64,000 nt of DNA from contig NZ_CP035928.1 of NCBI RefSeq assembly GCF_004214795.1, positions 2,232,001 to 2,296,000 on the forward strand, in the 5' to 3' direction. The notes below the pieces were generated by a model that ran no database searches, had not been told where the DNA came from, and saw nothing but the letters and a program-made list of their open reading frames with translations. Shown here piece after piece: positions 18,406 through 25,037 of this stretch (positions within the stretch are counted from its first letter, which is position 1; every line of letters starts with the position of its first letter). Source of the stretch: Malaciobacter pacificus (GTDB lineage: Bacteria > Campylobacterota > Campylobacteria > Campylobacterales > Arcobacteraceae). A program made the position numbers and the translations under genes.

Positions 18406-18445
18406 AATTAATACCTATTTTAATTTTTTATTGATATTATATCGA

Positions 18446-19087
18446 ATGAAACGAACTATTATCCTTATTTTTTTATTTGCTTTCACATTAAATGCCTATG
18501 AATTTAAACTAAATAAAAAAGATATAAAATATATTAATAAGTCTGTAAAGAAGCCTTTTATAGTTAATAGGTTAAAAAAATATGAAGAACTAAAAATAAA
18601 AGTTAAAGACTATAACTTAATTCGAAAATTATCACATATAAATTCTTTTGTTAATAAAATATTACCAGCCTATGACTTAGCAGAAAACTCATCAATTGAT
18701 TATTGGGCAACACCTAAAGAGTTTTTAATTCAAGGCCATGGTGATTGTGAAGATTATGCAATAACAAAGTATTTTACACTTCTTGAACTAGGAATTCCAA
18801 AAGAAAAACTATATTTTGCTGTAGTTGATATAAAAGGTCAAAGAGATTCTCATATGGTACTTTTATACTTAGAAAATATAAAATCAACACCACTTGTATT
18901 AGATAATCTTAGCTTTAAAGTAATTCCCTTTACAAAAAGAAAAAAGTTAATTCCCAAGTTTGCATTCAATGAAATAGATTCTTATAGATTTAACCCTGAA
19001 GGTTTTACTAAAAAAGTTAGAATTAAATGGGGAAAAGAGAATAAATGGGAAAAACTTTTAAACAGAGTTTATGTTCTTAATGAATAA
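18446..19087 (+). CDS. Transglutaminase-like cysteine protease, LapG/BTLCP type
   Basis: 213 residues from ATG 18446; a TTG five codons earlier is possible but less likely. Signal peptide or anchor at 1-18 (IILIFLFAFTLNA). The catalytic triad of bacterial transglutaminase-like cysteine proteases is visible: C101 (GHGDCEDYA), H136 (DSHMVLL) and D153 (VLDNLS). LapG enzymes are periplasmic and cut large adhesins to release cells from surfaces under cyclic di-GMP control through LapD. Neither LapD nor a large adhesin is in this window, so substrate is unknown. Its last 19 bases overlap the convergent pabC-like gene. Confidence 0.8.
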   Translation: MKRTIILIFLFAFTLNAYEFKLNKKDIKYINKSVKKPFIVNRLKKYEELKIKVKDYNLIRKLSHINSFVNKILPAYDLAENSSIDYWATPKEFLIQGHGDCEDYAITKYFTLLELGIPKEKLYFAVVDIKGQRDSHMVLLYLENIKSTPLVLDNLSFKVIPFTKRKKLIPKFAFNEIDSYRFNPEGFTKKVRIKWGKENKWEKLLNRVYVLNE

Positions 19088-19638
19088 TTTTCTATTACAT
19101 CAAAATCAATCATTGCATTTAATAAAGCTATCTTTTCTGATTTTTTTAACATCTCAACTGTGATGTTTTTTTCTATTAAATTTTTTTCTTTAATCAACCT
19201 AGATTTTGTAGTACCTTCAAGTAAAGACTCTTTTGAAATATACCACTGATTTTCATAATACACAGCAATATTAGCTATTGAGGTATCAGTTACTACACCA
19301 TTTTTAACAATAATGATTTCATCACAATCTTCTTTTAATTCAAATAATTCATCCAAACAAGTTCTATTTAAATACTTACTAGAATAATCTATACAATCAT
19401 CATAAAGGATTTTAAAAGTCTCAATAACTCTTTTTTTATATGGATAAAAATCTACACTTAAAATACCTGATTCATCATAGATTAACTTACATCTTAAAAG
19501 TTCACTATTTGGAGGATAAATATACTCTTGTAAATTTAGATTTAATCCTATAGTTTTAGCTATTCTTCTTTCATGATACTCTAAATTAAAAATCTCAAAG
19601 TCTTCACATTTGATAGTTTCAAAATATTTTATACTCAT
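19069..19638 (-). CDS. pabC: Class IV PLP aminotransferase, PabC-like aminodeoxychorismate lyase
   Basis: 189 residues, shorter than most class IV enzymes (about 260-300). Segments VTDTSIANIAVY and LLEGTTKSRLI are the phosphate-binding and active-site loops of the family; the Schiff-base lysine is probably in SSKYLNR. Such enzymes release p-aminobenzoate and pyruvate from aminodeoxychorismate. Position two genes after pabB on the same strand supports a folate role. D-amino-acid or branched-chain aminotransferase are less likely alternatives. It overlaps the LapG-like gene tail to tail by 19 bp. Confidence 0.72.
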   Translation of the reverse strand: MSIKYFETIKCEDFEIFNLEYHERRIAKTIGLNLNLQEYIYPPNSELLRCKLIYDESGILSVDFYPYKKRVIETFKILYDDCIDYSSKYLNRTCLDELFELKEDCDEIIIVKNGVVTDTSIANIAVYYENQWYISKESLLEGTTKSRLIKEKNLIEKNITVEMLKKSEKIALLNAMIDFDVIENYSLRT

Positions 19639-19691
19639 TTTACTCTTTTTATTTTTTAAAGTATCATAACATAGGAAAGTTTATTTATTCA

Positions 19692-20720
19692 CTATTTTTT
19701 TGCAAAAACCTTTGCAACTTCATTTGCATATTGTAATTGAGTTGTTATTCCTACACAAGAACAGTTTATTTCTGAGAGAATATATTTATCATTTCCATTT
19801 TCATCATAATCTAATATATAATCCATTGTCCAAAGAAGAGGATAATTCTGTCCTGCTAAGTAAGGCTTTAAATCTTTTAATCCTTCTATAGTTAAAGTAA
19901 CTACATCTTTCCATTTTTCTTCATTTGGTGATTCATAGTTATATTTAGCTCCTGAAAATAAAGTAGCAGAAAAAGCCCCATCTTGTGGTTTTTTATGAAC
20001 AACAGAAATTGGTTTATCATTTACTAGTAAAACTCTAATTTCACCTTCACTAATTCTTTCTAAATATCTACAACCAACAAAACCTGTTTTTCCTTGAAAA
20101 TATTCAGCGTATTCATTATCTTCTTCAAAGTTTTTCTCAAATTTAGATATAAACTCATGAATATCATCATAATAGTATTTTTCATTATTAACAGCTTCAG
20201 TAGAGATAATTGAACCATCATCTTGCAATCTAACTAAATAAACACCCTCACCAGTTGAGCCATAATTTGTTTTTAAAACTCTAATTCCATACTTTTTTAA
20301 ATCATTGGGAAACTTTGAAGCAAAATCTGAAAATTGATGGTAAAAATATGACTCTCTATCTCCAAGTTTTGTATCTTTTAATTTTGCTAGTATATCTTTA
20401 AAATCAAGATTAATCATAACATCTGGATGAGTATGCACTTCAATATCACTATCACTAAGTGCTTTTAAAAACTGGAAATATTCATCTACTTGTTTTAAAT
20501 TCCCTGGATTAATTCTTGAAATGACAGCATGAGCATTTTTCTTTAAATACTCTAAAAGTTGATATTTTTTATTTGGTTTGAAAAAAACAATTTCTGTTTT
20601 AAAGTTTGTAGCATCGCAAATAGCATTTAATATAGGTTTAGTATCTGGCCTAAACCCATCAAAACCTTTATCACTTCCCTTTGAATACTCAATTATAAAT
20701 ATAGTATCTTTCTTATACAT
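19692..20720 (-). CDS. ATP-grasp-like protein, Cj0069 family
   Basis: 342 residues of unknown function, resembling the protein I recall as Cj0069 in C. jejuni. The layout fits an ATP-grasp enzyme: an N-terminal pre-ATP domain, KTNYGSTGEGVYLV near 150, EGEIRVLLVNDKPISVVHKK near 225, and a metal-site-like C-terminal ILSEINCSCVGIT near 320. Such folds ligate a carboxylate to an amine or thiol using ATP. It sits between pabB and the pabC-like gene, with gaps of 66 and 53 bp, so a link to folate or aminobenzoate chemistry is possible but unproved. Confidence 0.6.
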   Translation of the reverse strand: MYKKDTIFIIEYSKGSDKGFDGFRPDTKPILNAICDATNFKTEIVFFKPNKKYQLLEYLKKNAHAVISRINPGNLKQVDEYFQFLKALSDSDIEVHTHPDVMINLDFKDILAKLKDTKLGDRESYFYHQFSDFASKFPNDLKKYGIRVLKTNYGSTGEGVYLVRLQDDGSIISTEAVNNEKYYYDDIHEFISKFEKNFEEDNEYAEYFQGKTGFVGCRYLERISEGEIRVLLVNDKPISVVHKKPQDGAFSATLFSGAKYNYESPNEEKWKDVVTLTIEGLKDLKPYLAGQNYPLLWTMDYILDYDENGNDKYILSEINCSCVGITTQLQYANEVAKVFAKK

Positions 20721-20786
20721 TTTACACCTTTAAAAAATTAGTGTAAAACTTTATGTTATTTTAGTTACAAAAAAGTTACTTATTTT

Positions 20787-21752
20787 TTAAAAAGGTAAAT
20801 ATACTTTATCAATGAGTTCTTGATACTCTAGTGATGCATCACTATCGCATGTAATTCCACCGCCACTTTTATAGTATTTATTGCCATCTGTATCTTCTTG
20901 AATAAATCTGATCATAACAGCACTATCTAAATTAGTTCCATCAAATACTCCAAAAACACCTGTATAAAAATCTCTCTCAAATCCTTCTATATTTTCAAGT
21001 ATTTCAATAGTTTTTTTCTTTGGTGTTCCAGTTATTGAACCAGCTGGTAAAATAGAAGTTAATATATCCCCTATTTTTTCATTCCAATTTTCTTCTAAAT
21101 GAGCTGATATTTTAGAGCTAACTTGTAAAAGCTTTTTATTTCCAGCATTAATTTTCTCACAATATCTAAACTTATTTACTCTAACTTTAGAACCAACTAT
21201 TCCCAAATCATTTCTAAGTAAATCTACAACCATTGTATGTTCAGCCATCTCTTTTATATCACCTGAAATTTTAGCTGACGCATTTGGTAAGCTTGCATCA
21301 ATAGTGCCTTTCATGGGATAAGTGTAAATCTTGTTTTTCTTTATTTGAATAAATCTCTCTGGGCTAAAACATACAAAATTATCATTTTCATTTTGATATC
21401 TTAATTTAAATTTTGCATGTGTTTTTTCATATATTTCATCAAGTGAATATTTAGTTTTTATTTTTGTTTGACTTGTTAGATTTAATAAGTAACTATTTCC
21501 ATTTTTAATATGCTCTTGAATTACATCAAACTTCTTTTTATACTCTTCAAAAGAGATTGGAAATTTTTCAAGTTTTGATTTTTGGTTTGATTTTAAAGGT
21601 TCATGAAAATCAAGTTCATACTTTATATGTGAAGGAAGCTCACATAGTTTTTTTATATAAAACTTTGATAAATCATAGGATATCACAAATAAAAATGGCT
21701 CTTTGGCTGAGCCATAATTATTTAGGATCTCTTTTAAATTTTCTGTGTTCAA
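20787..21752 (-). CDS. pabB: Aminodeoxychorismate synthase component I, short form
   Basis: 321 residues, mostly the chorismate-binding catalytic domain; the N-terminal lobe of full-length PabB (about 450) is reduced. Key segments are NSYLLNLT, YPMKGTID, VVDLLRNDLG, AGSITGTPKKKTIEI and YTGVFGVFDG. It aminates chorismate to 4-amino-4-deoxychorismate; no glutaminase PabA is in this window. Start is TTG at 21752, one base after the pyrB stop, so translation is probably coupled. Anthranilate synthase is excluded mainly by the KGTID type motif and length. Confidence 0.85.
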   Translation of the reverse strand: MNTENLKEILNNYGSAKEPFLFVISYDLSKFYIKKLCELPSHIKYELDFHEPLKSNQKSKLEKFPISFEEYKKKFDVIQEHIKNGNSYLLNLTSQTKIKTKYSLDEIYEKTHAKFKLRYQNENDNFVCFSPERFIQIKKNKIYTYPMKGTIDASLPNASAKISGDIKEMAEHTMVVDLLRNDLGIVGSKVRVNKFRYCEKINAGNKKLLQVSSKISAHLEENWNEKIGDILTSILPAGSITGTPKKKTIEILENIEGFERDFYTGVFGVFDGTNLDSAVMIRFIQEDTDGNKYYKSGGGITCDSDASLEYQELIDKVYLPF

Positions 21753-21753
21753 A

Positions 21754-22632
21754 TTAACCTAATATTAGTTTTTTAAGAACTGCTGCTCTAATTGCAACAC
21801 CATTTGTTACTTGCTCTAATACTTTATTTCTAGGGTCTTTTAACATTTCATCAGAAATATCTACATTCCTATTTACTGGTCCTGGATGTAATAATAAAAT
21901 ATTTCTATCACCCATCACTTCACTTGTAATACAAAAATCTTTTGCATACTCATTTAAAGATTCAAAATATACTTGATTATGTCTTTCTAGCTGTGTTCTT
22001 AAACTCATAATTACATCAAGTTCATCAATTACATCATTTAAACTTGTATAAGTTGCAAAATCATCACCTTCGTATCTAAAACACTCAGGACTTACAAAAC
22101 ATACTTCCATCCCAAATCTAGGAAGTAATCTTCTATTTGAACCTGCTACTCTTGAAGTTCTAACATCACCTACAATTGCAACTTTCTTACCATCAGTTTG
22201 ACCTTCAAAATGATCATAAATAGTAAATAAATCAAGTAATGCTTGAGTTGGGTGGGCATGTTTACCATCACCTGCATTAATAATTGGACAATCTACAAAT
22301 CCAGTTAAAGTTTCAGGTAATCCACACTCAGAATGTCTAATAATAATTGCATCAGGTTTCATTGCATTAATATTTGCAACTGTATCGAAAATAGTTTCAC
22401 CCTTTGAAGTTGAAGATGTTCCAACATCAAGCGATACTACCTCAGCACCTAATCTTTTAGCTGCAATTTCAAATGAACTTCTAGTTCTTGTTGAATTTTC
22501 AAAAAACAAAGTTACTATAATTTTACCTTTTAAAATTTCATTTGGCTCAAATTTTAAATACTCTCTAGCGTCATCAAAAAGGCCTAAAATTTCCTCTTTA
22601 GAAAAGTCAGAAGTTCTAATCAAATGCTGCAT
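21754..22632 (-). CDS. pyrB: Aspartate carbamoyltransferase catalytic subunit
   Basis: 292 residues. Makes carbamoyl-aspartate in pyrimidine synthesis. The carbamoyl-phosphate site [13 protein letters not shown], the [14 protein letters not shown] loop and [12 protein letters not shown] and [10 protein letters not shown] segments are all present. First gene of a minus-strand run with pabB, the ATP-grasp gene and pabC. No pyrI regulatory gene is adjacent. Confidence 0.97.
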
Positions 22633-22727: not shown

Positions 22728-25037
22728 ATGAAGTTACAAATACCCTTTTTTTTACTAATATTTTTATTTTTTACAAAAACTATTTTTGCAAATGAAAATG
22801 CTCAAATTTCTTATATCAAAGATATAAAACCTATCTTAGATAATAGATGTGTAACATGTCACTCTTGCTATAACTCACCTTGTCAATTAAAGCTTTCTTC
22901 ATTTGAAGGTTTAAAAAGAGGCGCAAACAAAGAATCTATTTATGAGAATAGATTAAAAGCCATTACTCCTAGTAGACTTTTTGTAGATGCTTTAAATGAA
23001 AAACAGTGGAGAGAGAAGAATTTCTATTCTGTTAGTGATACTCTAGAGGATTTACAAAGTTCAATTATGATTGAACTGTTAAAACAAAAACAAAATAATC
23101 CTTTAAATAAAGGAACCTATTCCCCTGAAACAGATGAATTATCTTGTATTCAAAATAAAAATGAGTTAAATGATTACTTAGAAGAAAAACCATATCATGG
23201 TATGCCTTACGGATTTCCAGTAATTTCACAAAAAGAGCATAATCTTTTGACTTCTTGGTTAAAACAAAAAGATTTAAATAGTGATGAAGAATTTGAAATA
23301 CTAAAAAATGAAAAGGATATGATAGAAAGATTTGAAAATTTTTTTAATAATTCAAATATTAAAAATCAAGTAAGTGCTAGATATATATATGAACATCTTT
23401 TTTTAGCACATATCTCTTTTGATAAAAACAGTAATAACTTCTTTGAATTAGTTAGAGCTAAAAATAAAACTGGTCCTGTACAAATAATAGCAACAAGATT
23501 TCCATATGATAAAATTGAAGATGATTTCTATTATAGATTTAGACTTATAAAATCAACAATCGTTCATAAAACCCATATGGTTTATGAAATGAATGATGAA
23601 AAACTTAAAAGATACAATGAACTTTTTATAAAACCTAAATGGATTGAAAAACCATATATGCCTCCATATGATTCAAGAATTTCTACAAATGCACTAAAAA
23701 CTTTTAAACAAATACCCTCAATTAGTAGATATCAATTTTTACTTGATGATATTCATTATGTAATTATGACTTATATTAGAGGTCCTGTTTGTAAAGGTCA
23801 AATTGCTCTAAATGTAATAAATGACCACTTTTGGGTTATGTTTATGGACCCAAAATATGACTTAGCTGTAAAAAATAAATACTATTTAGATGCAAATTTA
23901 CATAATTTATCTATTCCAAATAAATATGGAGATAATCCAAATCTAATAGAGACATTTTCAGTTGTTGAAAATTATGAGCAAGCTGTTGAATACTATAAAA
24001 GCAAAAATGCTATATATAATGCATACTACAAAAATGGAATTCCATTTGAAGCTATTTGGAAAGGCAATCAAAAAGAACAAAATGATGCAATACTAACTAT
24101 TTATAGACACTTTGATTCAGCATCAGTTCATAAAGGTGCATTGGGTGATATTCCAAGAACTCTTTGGCTTATTGATTTTCCACTATTAGAGAGACTTTAC
24201 TATTCTTTAGTTGCAGGATTTGATGTATTTGGAAGTACACAGCATCAATTTTTAGTGCGAAAACATATGGATAGACTAAGAATTGAGGGAGAAACTAATT
24301 TTTTAGAGTTTTTACCAAAAGAGAGTAGAAAAGAGTATTTTAACTCTTGGTATAAAGGATGGATTGCTAGATACTTCACTTATTATGTTCCATCTAAAAA
24401 CCAAACAAGTATTAATTATGAAACAACTAACTATAAAAAAGAATTTGTAAATAAAGTATTAAAATACACAAACACAGAATTAGACAAAATAAATTATATA
24501 AAAGAGGATTATCGGCCTTCAAATATATTAGAAAATTATGAAAATATAGATCAGATAAATGAAACATTAAAAATGTTAACTTTACCAAATAACTCAAAAC
24601 TAATTCAAAACTATACAAATGATAAATCCAATTTGGCATATATAAAAATTGAGTTAAATGACGGAAATTCACTTATTTACTCAATGGTAATAAATAGATG
24701 GCATGATAATGTAGCACTTATGTTTGACGAGGAGGGAAGATTAGATGCTAAAAAAGATAGAATCAATTTTATTAAAGGTTTTATAGGATCTTACCCTAAT
24801 ATTTTTGTAGTAGTAAAACAAAATGAATTAAGTGATTTTTTTAATTTAATTTATGATTATCAAGATACAAAAGAGCATAAGAAAAGACTACTAAAATATG
24901 CAATAAATAGAGCAAATCCAAAGTTTTGGGATGTTTATGATTGGTTTACAAATGAGTTTAAAAAGCAAGATAAACTAAAATTTGGACTGTTTGATTTAAA
25001 TAGATATTATGATAAAGCAATAAATGACTTAGATTAA
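22728..25037 (+). CDS. cti: Fatty acid cis/trans isomerase
   Basis: 769 residues, the usual Cti length. A signal peptide (1-21, FFTKTIFANE) exports it to the periplasm. A c-type haem motif CVTCH at 41-45 precedes the long catalytic region. Cti turns cis-unsaturated fatty acids of phospholipids into trans forms, stiffening the membrane under solvent, heat or osmotic stress; the haem is needed for catalysis. Other recognisable pieces are VCKGQIALNVINDHFWVMF and QHQFLVRKHMDRLRIEGE. Single-gene unit with its own TATAAT box. Confidence 0.92.
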   Translation: MKLQIPFFLLIFLFFTKTIFANENAQISYIKDIKPILDNRCVTCHSCYNSPCQLKLSSFEGLKRGANKESIYENRLKAITPSRLFVDALNEKQWREKNFYSVSDTLEDLQSSIMIELLKQKQNNPLNKGTYSPETDELSCIQNKNELNDYLEEKPYHGMPYGFPVISQKEHNLLTSWLKQKDLNSDEEFEILKNEKDMIERFENFFNNSNIKNQVSARYIYEHLFLAHISFDKNSNNFFELVRAKNKTGPVQIIATRFPYDKIEDDFYYRFRLIKSTIVHKTHMVYEMNDEKLKRYNELFIKPKWIEKPYMPPYDSRISTNALKTFKQIPSISRYQFLLDDIHYVIMTYIRGPVCKGQIALNVINDHFWVMFMDPKYDLAVKNKYYLDANLHNLSIPNKYGDNPNLIETFSVVENYEQAVEYYKSKNAIYNAYYKNGIPFEAIWKGNQKEQNDAILTIYRHFDSASVHKGALGDIPRTLWLIDFPLLERLYYSLVAGFDVFGSTQHQFLVRKHMDRLRIEGETNFLEFLPKESRKEYFNSWYKGWIARYFTYYVPSKNQTSINYETTNYKKEFVNKVLKYTNTELDKINYIKEDYRPSNILENYENIDQINETLKMLTLPNNSKLIQNYTNDKSNLAYIKIELNDGNSLIYSMVINRWHDNVALMFDEEGRLDAKKDRINFIKGFIGSYPNIFVVVKQNELSDFFNLIYDYQDTKEHKKRLLKYAINRANPKFWDVYDWFTNEFKKQDKLKFGLFDLNRYYDKAINDLD

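Follow-up and report, generated by a model that had tools for sequence, protein, structure and literature searches.

Why does a gene for an ATP-dependent ligase stand between two genes of p-aminobenzoate (pABA) synthesis in Malaciobacter pacificus? The window, by which we mean the whole analysed stretch of 64,000 nucleotides, covers positions 2232001-2296000 of a one-contig genome of 2.66 Mb. Open reading frames and family matches confirmed that pabB, a Cj0069-family ATP-grasp gene and a short gene of the class IV pyridoxal phosphate enzymes are real genes that follow one another on the minus strand after pyrB, as the first-pass annotation had described. That annotation left two explanations for the ligase gene, a step that modifies aminobenzoate or just local clustering. 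Our results favored the second. The protein is quite probably a stand-alone carboxylate-amine ATP-grasp ligase and not a step of pABA or folate synthesis; its gene would be cargo in a slot between pabB and pabC that tolerates insertions.

Fold and catalytic residues of the ligase

The ligase of 342 amino acids is encoded at 19692..20720 on the minus strand. It matched the Cj0069 family NF033816 with 272.8 bits against a cut-off of 150 (residues 7-338 aligned with model positions 2-328 of 334) and contained the C-terminal DUF6815 domain PF20668 with 117.5 bits against a cut-off of 28 (positions 1-105 of 105). The AlphaFold2 (AF2) model had a predicted local distance difference test score (pLDDT) of 84.5 and a predicted template modelling score of 0.82. 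Structural comparison with VIA-align gave the best match with DcsG (6jil; Z 20.7, root-mean-square deviation 3.4, 287 residues aligned), followed by ArgX (3vpb; Z 20.5), GshB (1gsa; Z 19.4), LysX (Z 18.9) and RimK (Z 18.2), and Foldseek agreed (E 2.1e-12 for ArgX). In the multiple alignment, R69, K108, K150, R229, E317 and N319 were aligned with R86, K125, K160, R210, E281 and N283 of E. coli GshB, which we take to bind ATP and Mg2+; among them, K108, K150, R229, E317 and N319 represent the ATP/Mg residues of the ATP-grasp core. D300 was paired with D273 of GshB by hhalign, whereas the multiple alignment placed it differently. In predicted fold and in aligned catalytic residues, the protein corresponds to the amide-forming ligases GshB, RimK, LysX and DcsG; it is a member of a known but uncharacterised amide-ligase-like family.

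Lys150 (20271..20273), the counterpart of the ATP-binding Lys160 of GshB, is followed by the glycine-rich loop GSTGEG (residues 154-159; 20244..20261), which was invariant in 23/23 aligned sequences and was found by motif in 78 of the 80 loci. Arg229 is the last residue of the motif EGEIR (residues 225-229; 20034..20048), and Glu317 and Asn319 open the motif EINCSCVG (residues 317-324; 19749..19772), in which the E-x-N is followed by the Cys-Ser-Cys of the family, present in 75 of the 80 loci and represented as Asn-Ser-Cys in five. The ratio of nonsynonymous to synonymous substitutions was 0.065-0.098 against three relatives, with synonymous sites near saturation, which indicated purifying selection and spoke for a working enzyme. 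Since these residues were aligned with those of GshB while the TRGNLAAGG of GshB was replaced by FSATLFSGA and Cys-Ser-Cys was added, ATP-dependent ligation is likely, as judged from sequence and model, and the substrate probably differs from that of glutathione synthesis. In the proposed reaction, ATP would phosphorylate the carboxylate of the substrate to an acyl phosphate, and an amine would then attack the acyl phosphate to form an amide. Glu317, Asn319 and probably Asp300 would coordinate the Mg2+, and the product would be either a small molecule resembling a peptide or a protein with a modified terminus.

Filing the protein as GshB or RimK was ruled out by the equivalog scores, which were 24.6 bits over residues 209-271 for the GshB model TIGR01380 (cut-off 299) and 21.0 bits for the RimK model TIGR00768 (cut-off 143.4). 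Structure prediction had been proposed earlier for the ligand site; it gave the fold, and the alignments gave the GshB-like ATP/Mg residues. In the literature passages on Cj0069 that were examined, the protein was mentioned as an antigen or appeared in the list of a flagellar-secretion screen, in an association table or in a proteomics table, and no enzyme activity was given; a literature search found nothing on DUF6815, on the Cj0069 family by name, on Cj0069 with chromate, or on Arcobacter pabB with folate. An anti-phage role was also rejected: neither the ligase nor the hydrolase described below had a PADLOC match, and no phage record matched the ligase at E 1e-5.

Distribution of the ligase and the gap between pabB and pabC

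The gene neighborhood of the family was surveyed in 104 Arcobacteraceae genomes and in an overlapping order-wide sample of 298 genomes; hits that stayed below the cut-off, namely NF033816 matches of 18-22 bits and two partial ones (63.3 and 39.6 bits), were not counted as carriers. PabB was over the cut-off in 100 of the 104 Arcobacteraceae genomes and the ligase in 28, so that it was missing in 76. It was near pab genes in 24 of these 28 carriers: directly behind pabB in 17, in the pabB-pabC gap together with further genes in four (G252, G345, G360 and, inferred across a contig break, G337), and between pabC and lapG in three (G070, G316 and G317). The remaining four carriers had it elsewhere (G120, G243, G348 and G351, in the last about 8 kb off); pabB and pabC were closed up in three of them, with gaps of 39, 14 and -4 nt, and the fourth was cut by a contig end. 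Twenty further pabB regions were picked by hand, one of which was G243, already counted, and the other 19 all lacked the ligase. In 15 of these 19, pabB and pabC were adjacent with a gap of -26 to +28 nt. The other four carried other inserts, namely an isochorismatase gene with a response regulator (G335, G344 and G234) or, in G333, a set resembling a fructose phosphotransferase system (PTS) operon with no pabC in reach.

Because the gap was closed up in most of the picked genomes without the ligase and held other inserts elsewhere, it is a slot in which a pab operon that is tight in other respects accepts unrelated genes. In Arcobacteraceae, this slot has gained and lost several such genes, the ligase among them. 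Cargo of the two kinds, an isochorismatase-domain gene with a response regulator or a fructose-PTS-like operon, was seen in the pabB-pabC region at L121, L129, L140, L142, L144 and L152. On a PabB tree with 56 rows, 12 changes were needed to account for the presence of the ligase. Moreover, the window ligase grouped with those of G351, G260 and G360 (starred in the ligase tree), while the window PabB was nearest to that of ligase-less genomes (support 91, not starred); this mismatch therefore points to lateral gain or scattered loss.

In the order-wide sample, 39 of the 298 genomes were over the cut-off, 11 of them Arcobacteraceae (nine with the ligase near pab genes) and 28 others. No pabB or pabC was present in the fetched flanks of any of these 28, which amounted to several kb in 22 (at most about 6 kb, with contig ends shortening some) and to about 1.5 kb or less in six. 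Among the 80 named loci of the genome collection, some of them cut short, pabB or pabC was seen in seven and in none of the other 73. Linkage to pab genes had been set beforehand as the test of an aminobenzoate-modifying step, and the family was found mostly apart from pab genes, with nine of 39 carriers near them. The co-occurrence expected of an enzyme of pABA or folate synthesis was not seen, either in presence (28 against 100 of 104 genomes) or in position. The adjacency was confined to Arcobacteraceae, which fits local clustering, and the modifying step found no support beyond adjacency. From this distribution, the ligase appears dispensable for the pab pathway, and the tempting lead of a new pABA-modifying enzyme was removed as unsupported. 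No constant partner of the ligase was seen in Bacillales, Flavobacteria and Helicobacter; among ten neighbor proteins scanned, one was the hydrolase and the others were transporters, housekeeping genes and the like. In one genome (G406), a Cj0069-family gene at C54:110359-111447 (L258) was accompanied at a distance of about 11 kb by a second one at 122636-123580 (L259), which was quite divergent (189 bits).

The convergent hydrolase and other readings

A protein of 254-277 amino acids is usually encoded convergent with the ligase, for example at L043:5479-6255. No Pfam family matched two scanned members at E 0.001, and a third gave weak S9 and PhoPQ hits. Its model (pLDDT 79.5) showed an alpha/beta-hydrolase fold nearest to feruloyl esterases and lipases (Z 19.1), in which Ser145, Asp196 and His235, invariant in 12 sequences, may form the catalytic triad. 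The hydrolase was found in 16 of the 104 Arcobacteraceae genomes, all of them among the 28 ligase carriers and none among the other 76 (Fisher p 1.1e-11, uncorrected for kinship), and in five of the 16 the isochorismatase/response-regulator pair stood between the two genes. In the order sample, all ten genomes with the hydrolase (10/296) carried the ligase, although in two the genes were not on the same contig, and the phylum sample (11/397) added three divergent hydrolases, two of which came from genomes that lacked the ligase. Five of 10 hydrolase loci, from Sulfurovaceae and other metagenome-assembled genomes of Campylobacterota, had the hydrolase next to the ligase and no pab genes. The pairwise distances of ligase and hydrolase were correlated, with r 0.76 and a partial r of 0.48 given PabB (16 genomes). 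In our view, the hydrolase is a more telling partner of the ligase than the pab genes are, and the two enzymes may share a substrate.

A narrower form of the cargo reading, rather than its opposite, is that the two genes make up a small-molecule module for making and unmaking, or maturing and recycling, an amide. The pab linkage would then be only a landing site in Arcobacteraceae, and the window genome would keep the ligase half. We regard this as possible but doubtful. The restriction of the hydrolase to ligase-bearing genomes in the two overlapping samples, the loci without pab genes, the correlated distances, and the fold with its invariant residues argue for it; however, 12 of the 28 Arcobacteraceae carriers lacked the hydrolase, none lay beside the ligase in any Campylobacter- or Helicobacter-type ligase locus read, and two genomes had a divergent hydrolase without the ligase. 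In addition, convergent genes need not share regulation, and the co-occurrence figures ignore the relatedness of the genomes.

A remote branch of the family was found on plasmids. The search with the ligase found 11 plasmid records at 22-26% identity, and that with a plasmid member found 29. Twelve plasmid stretches (L263-L274), all alpha- or betaproteobacterial and several of them nearly the same element, carried chrA or chrB in ten and an Fe-Mn superoxide dismutase (SOD) gene in nine, with one or the other in all 12; the order was chrB-chrA-SOD-ligase in most Sphingomonadaceae stretches, and chrA overlapped the ligase gene by 4 nt in pTiKerr27. The TnOtchr element chrB-chrA-chrC-chrF is described as having two SODs, ChrC and the 17-kDa ChrF (PMC4779226), so the plasmid ligase is not ChrF. 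The plasmid branch lacked the Cys-Ser-Cys and HKKP motifs. A search at E 1e-4 found no chrA, chrB, SOD or DUF1259 gene in the window or in the fetched non-plasmid ligase loci, while the same search with a plasmid ligase found 203 records. Because no chr gene was near the non-plasmid ligases and the motifs were missing, nothing was carried over from this branch to the window gene. A wider conjecture, which we hold tentatively and consider rather unlikely, is that an amide-forming small-molecule pathway, hitherto undescribed, is built around the Cj0069-family ligase and its convergent serine hydrolase, is patchy across Campylobacterota and includes the C. jejuni ligase, and that the remote branch was recruited to chromate and superoxide defence on alpha- and betaproteobacterial plasmids, which would make this a stress-related amide ligase family. 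The conserved hydrolase partner and the plasmid branch in chromate-resistance operons are the better leads, giving testable hints for the Cj0069 family.

An enzyme that modifies a protein in the manner of RimK or LysX, instead of a small molecule, is an unlikely alternative. The fold matches with RimK and with LysX/ArgX were about as good as those with small-molecule ligases, but the RimK family score was far below its cut-off, and the gene maps, in which no search was aimed at a LysW-like carrier gene, showed none next to the ligase. It is highly improbable that the ligase has a functional place between pabB and pabC as an enzyme that modifies pABA or some folate precursor, for example through attachment of an amino acid. 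Same-strand adjacency and closeness in most Arcobacteraceae carriers speak for this reading, but the ligase is absent from most genomes of that family that have PabB, pab genes were not seen in the fetched flanks of carriers outside it, PTS and response-regulator genes occur in the slot as well, and the genome has a separate FolC (261.7 bits).

Several observations weigh against the reading of the ligase as a stand-alone enzyme carried as cargo. The PDB searches gave no credible solved sequence relative, with rows at chance level only. The hydrolase was searched for and not found in the window genome, although the ligase is present; two genomes of one genus (G455 and G546) lacked the ligase but encoded a divergent hydrolase (168-170 bits); and an independent-pairs test of the association, with five usable pairs, was not significant. 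Linkage to pab genes is common within Arcobacteraceae, and the link may be useful in that family alone. Archaeal RimK-type ligases such as MptN add glutamate to pterins, and a pterin or pABA substrate is therefore imaginable.

The pab block and comparison with known systems

Upstream of the block, pyrB (21754..22632, minus strand) encodes aspartate carbamoyltransferase (NF002032/PRK00856, 346.2 bits, cut-off 263), and its stop codon is spaced 1 nt from the start of pabB. A fatty acid cis/trans isomerase gene (22728-25037; PF06934, 792 bits), the presence of which varies among relatives, adjoins pyrB. The pabB gene (20787..21752, minus strand, TTG start) encodes a short aminodeoxychorismate synthase component I of the PRK07093 type (NF005486, 454.1 bits, cut-off 275), and residues 3-321 of its 321 amino acids covered positions 3-322 of 323 of the model. 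The first-pass annotation had noted that it lacks much of the N-terminal lobe, which holds against the long PabB and TrpE proteins; as a peculiarity it did not stand, since complete relatives have 312-323 amino acids, and a truncated pabB was rejected. PabA is absent from the window, as had been remarked. One TrpG/PabA-type gene lies outside the window, about 71 kb to its left (G000:C1:2160043-2160606, 241.8 bits), with four other such matches in the genome below the cut-off, so its absence here is ordinary too.

The ligase gene is separated from pabB by a gap of 66 nt (20721..20786, minus strand) and, being on the same strand, is probably co-transcribed with it. A promoter of its own was rejected: the only hit of the promoter scan in this gap overlapped the ATG, and the scan gave 20 promoter-like hits against 26.3 expected from shuffles. 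The gap of 53 nt behind the ligase (19639..19691, minus strand) leaves no room for any hydrolase gene. The class IV gene (19069..19638, minus strand) matched PF01063 (Aminotran_4) with 53.4 bits against a cut-off of 28.5 (residues 102-177 on positions 132-215 of 223, the C-terminal half only), and no NCBIfam family at E 0.001, hence no PabC equivalog. Its place and length are conserved, nearly all relatives having 186-202 amino acids. Because the genome has only one other class IV gene, at C1:154485, it is plausibly the pabC (aminodeoxychorismate lyase) of the block, a role resting on gene order and not on a model. Its 3' end overlaps by 19 nt that of a convergent gene for a LapG/BTLCP-like cysteine protease (18434..19087, plus strand; PF06035 with 55.8 bits; NF045674 with 120.1 bits, below the cut-off of 320), which forms the conserved right edge of the block and lies beside pabC in most Arcobacteraceae maps.

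Compared with known systems, the window PabB matched the short PRK07093 proteins over its full length, with no notable difference. The ligase likewise matched the Cj0069 family, for example Campylobacter jejuni Cj0069, over its whole length, with the motifs GSTGEG, EGEIR, HKKP and NCSCVG in common. The Campylobacter- and Helicobacter-type Cj0069 proteins, 42-47% identical to it, formed a separate clade and lacked the pab linkage, which occurs in Arcobacteraceae only. E. coli GshB resembled the ligase in its fold and in the six aligned positions from R86 to N283, but differed in overall sequence (17% identity), in the segment that replaces TRGNLAAGG and in lacking the extra Cys-Ser-Cys. DcsG, the D-cycloserine synthetase, together with LysX/ArgX and RimK, gave the best structural matches, yet shared only 12-16% identity with the ligase over the structural alignments.

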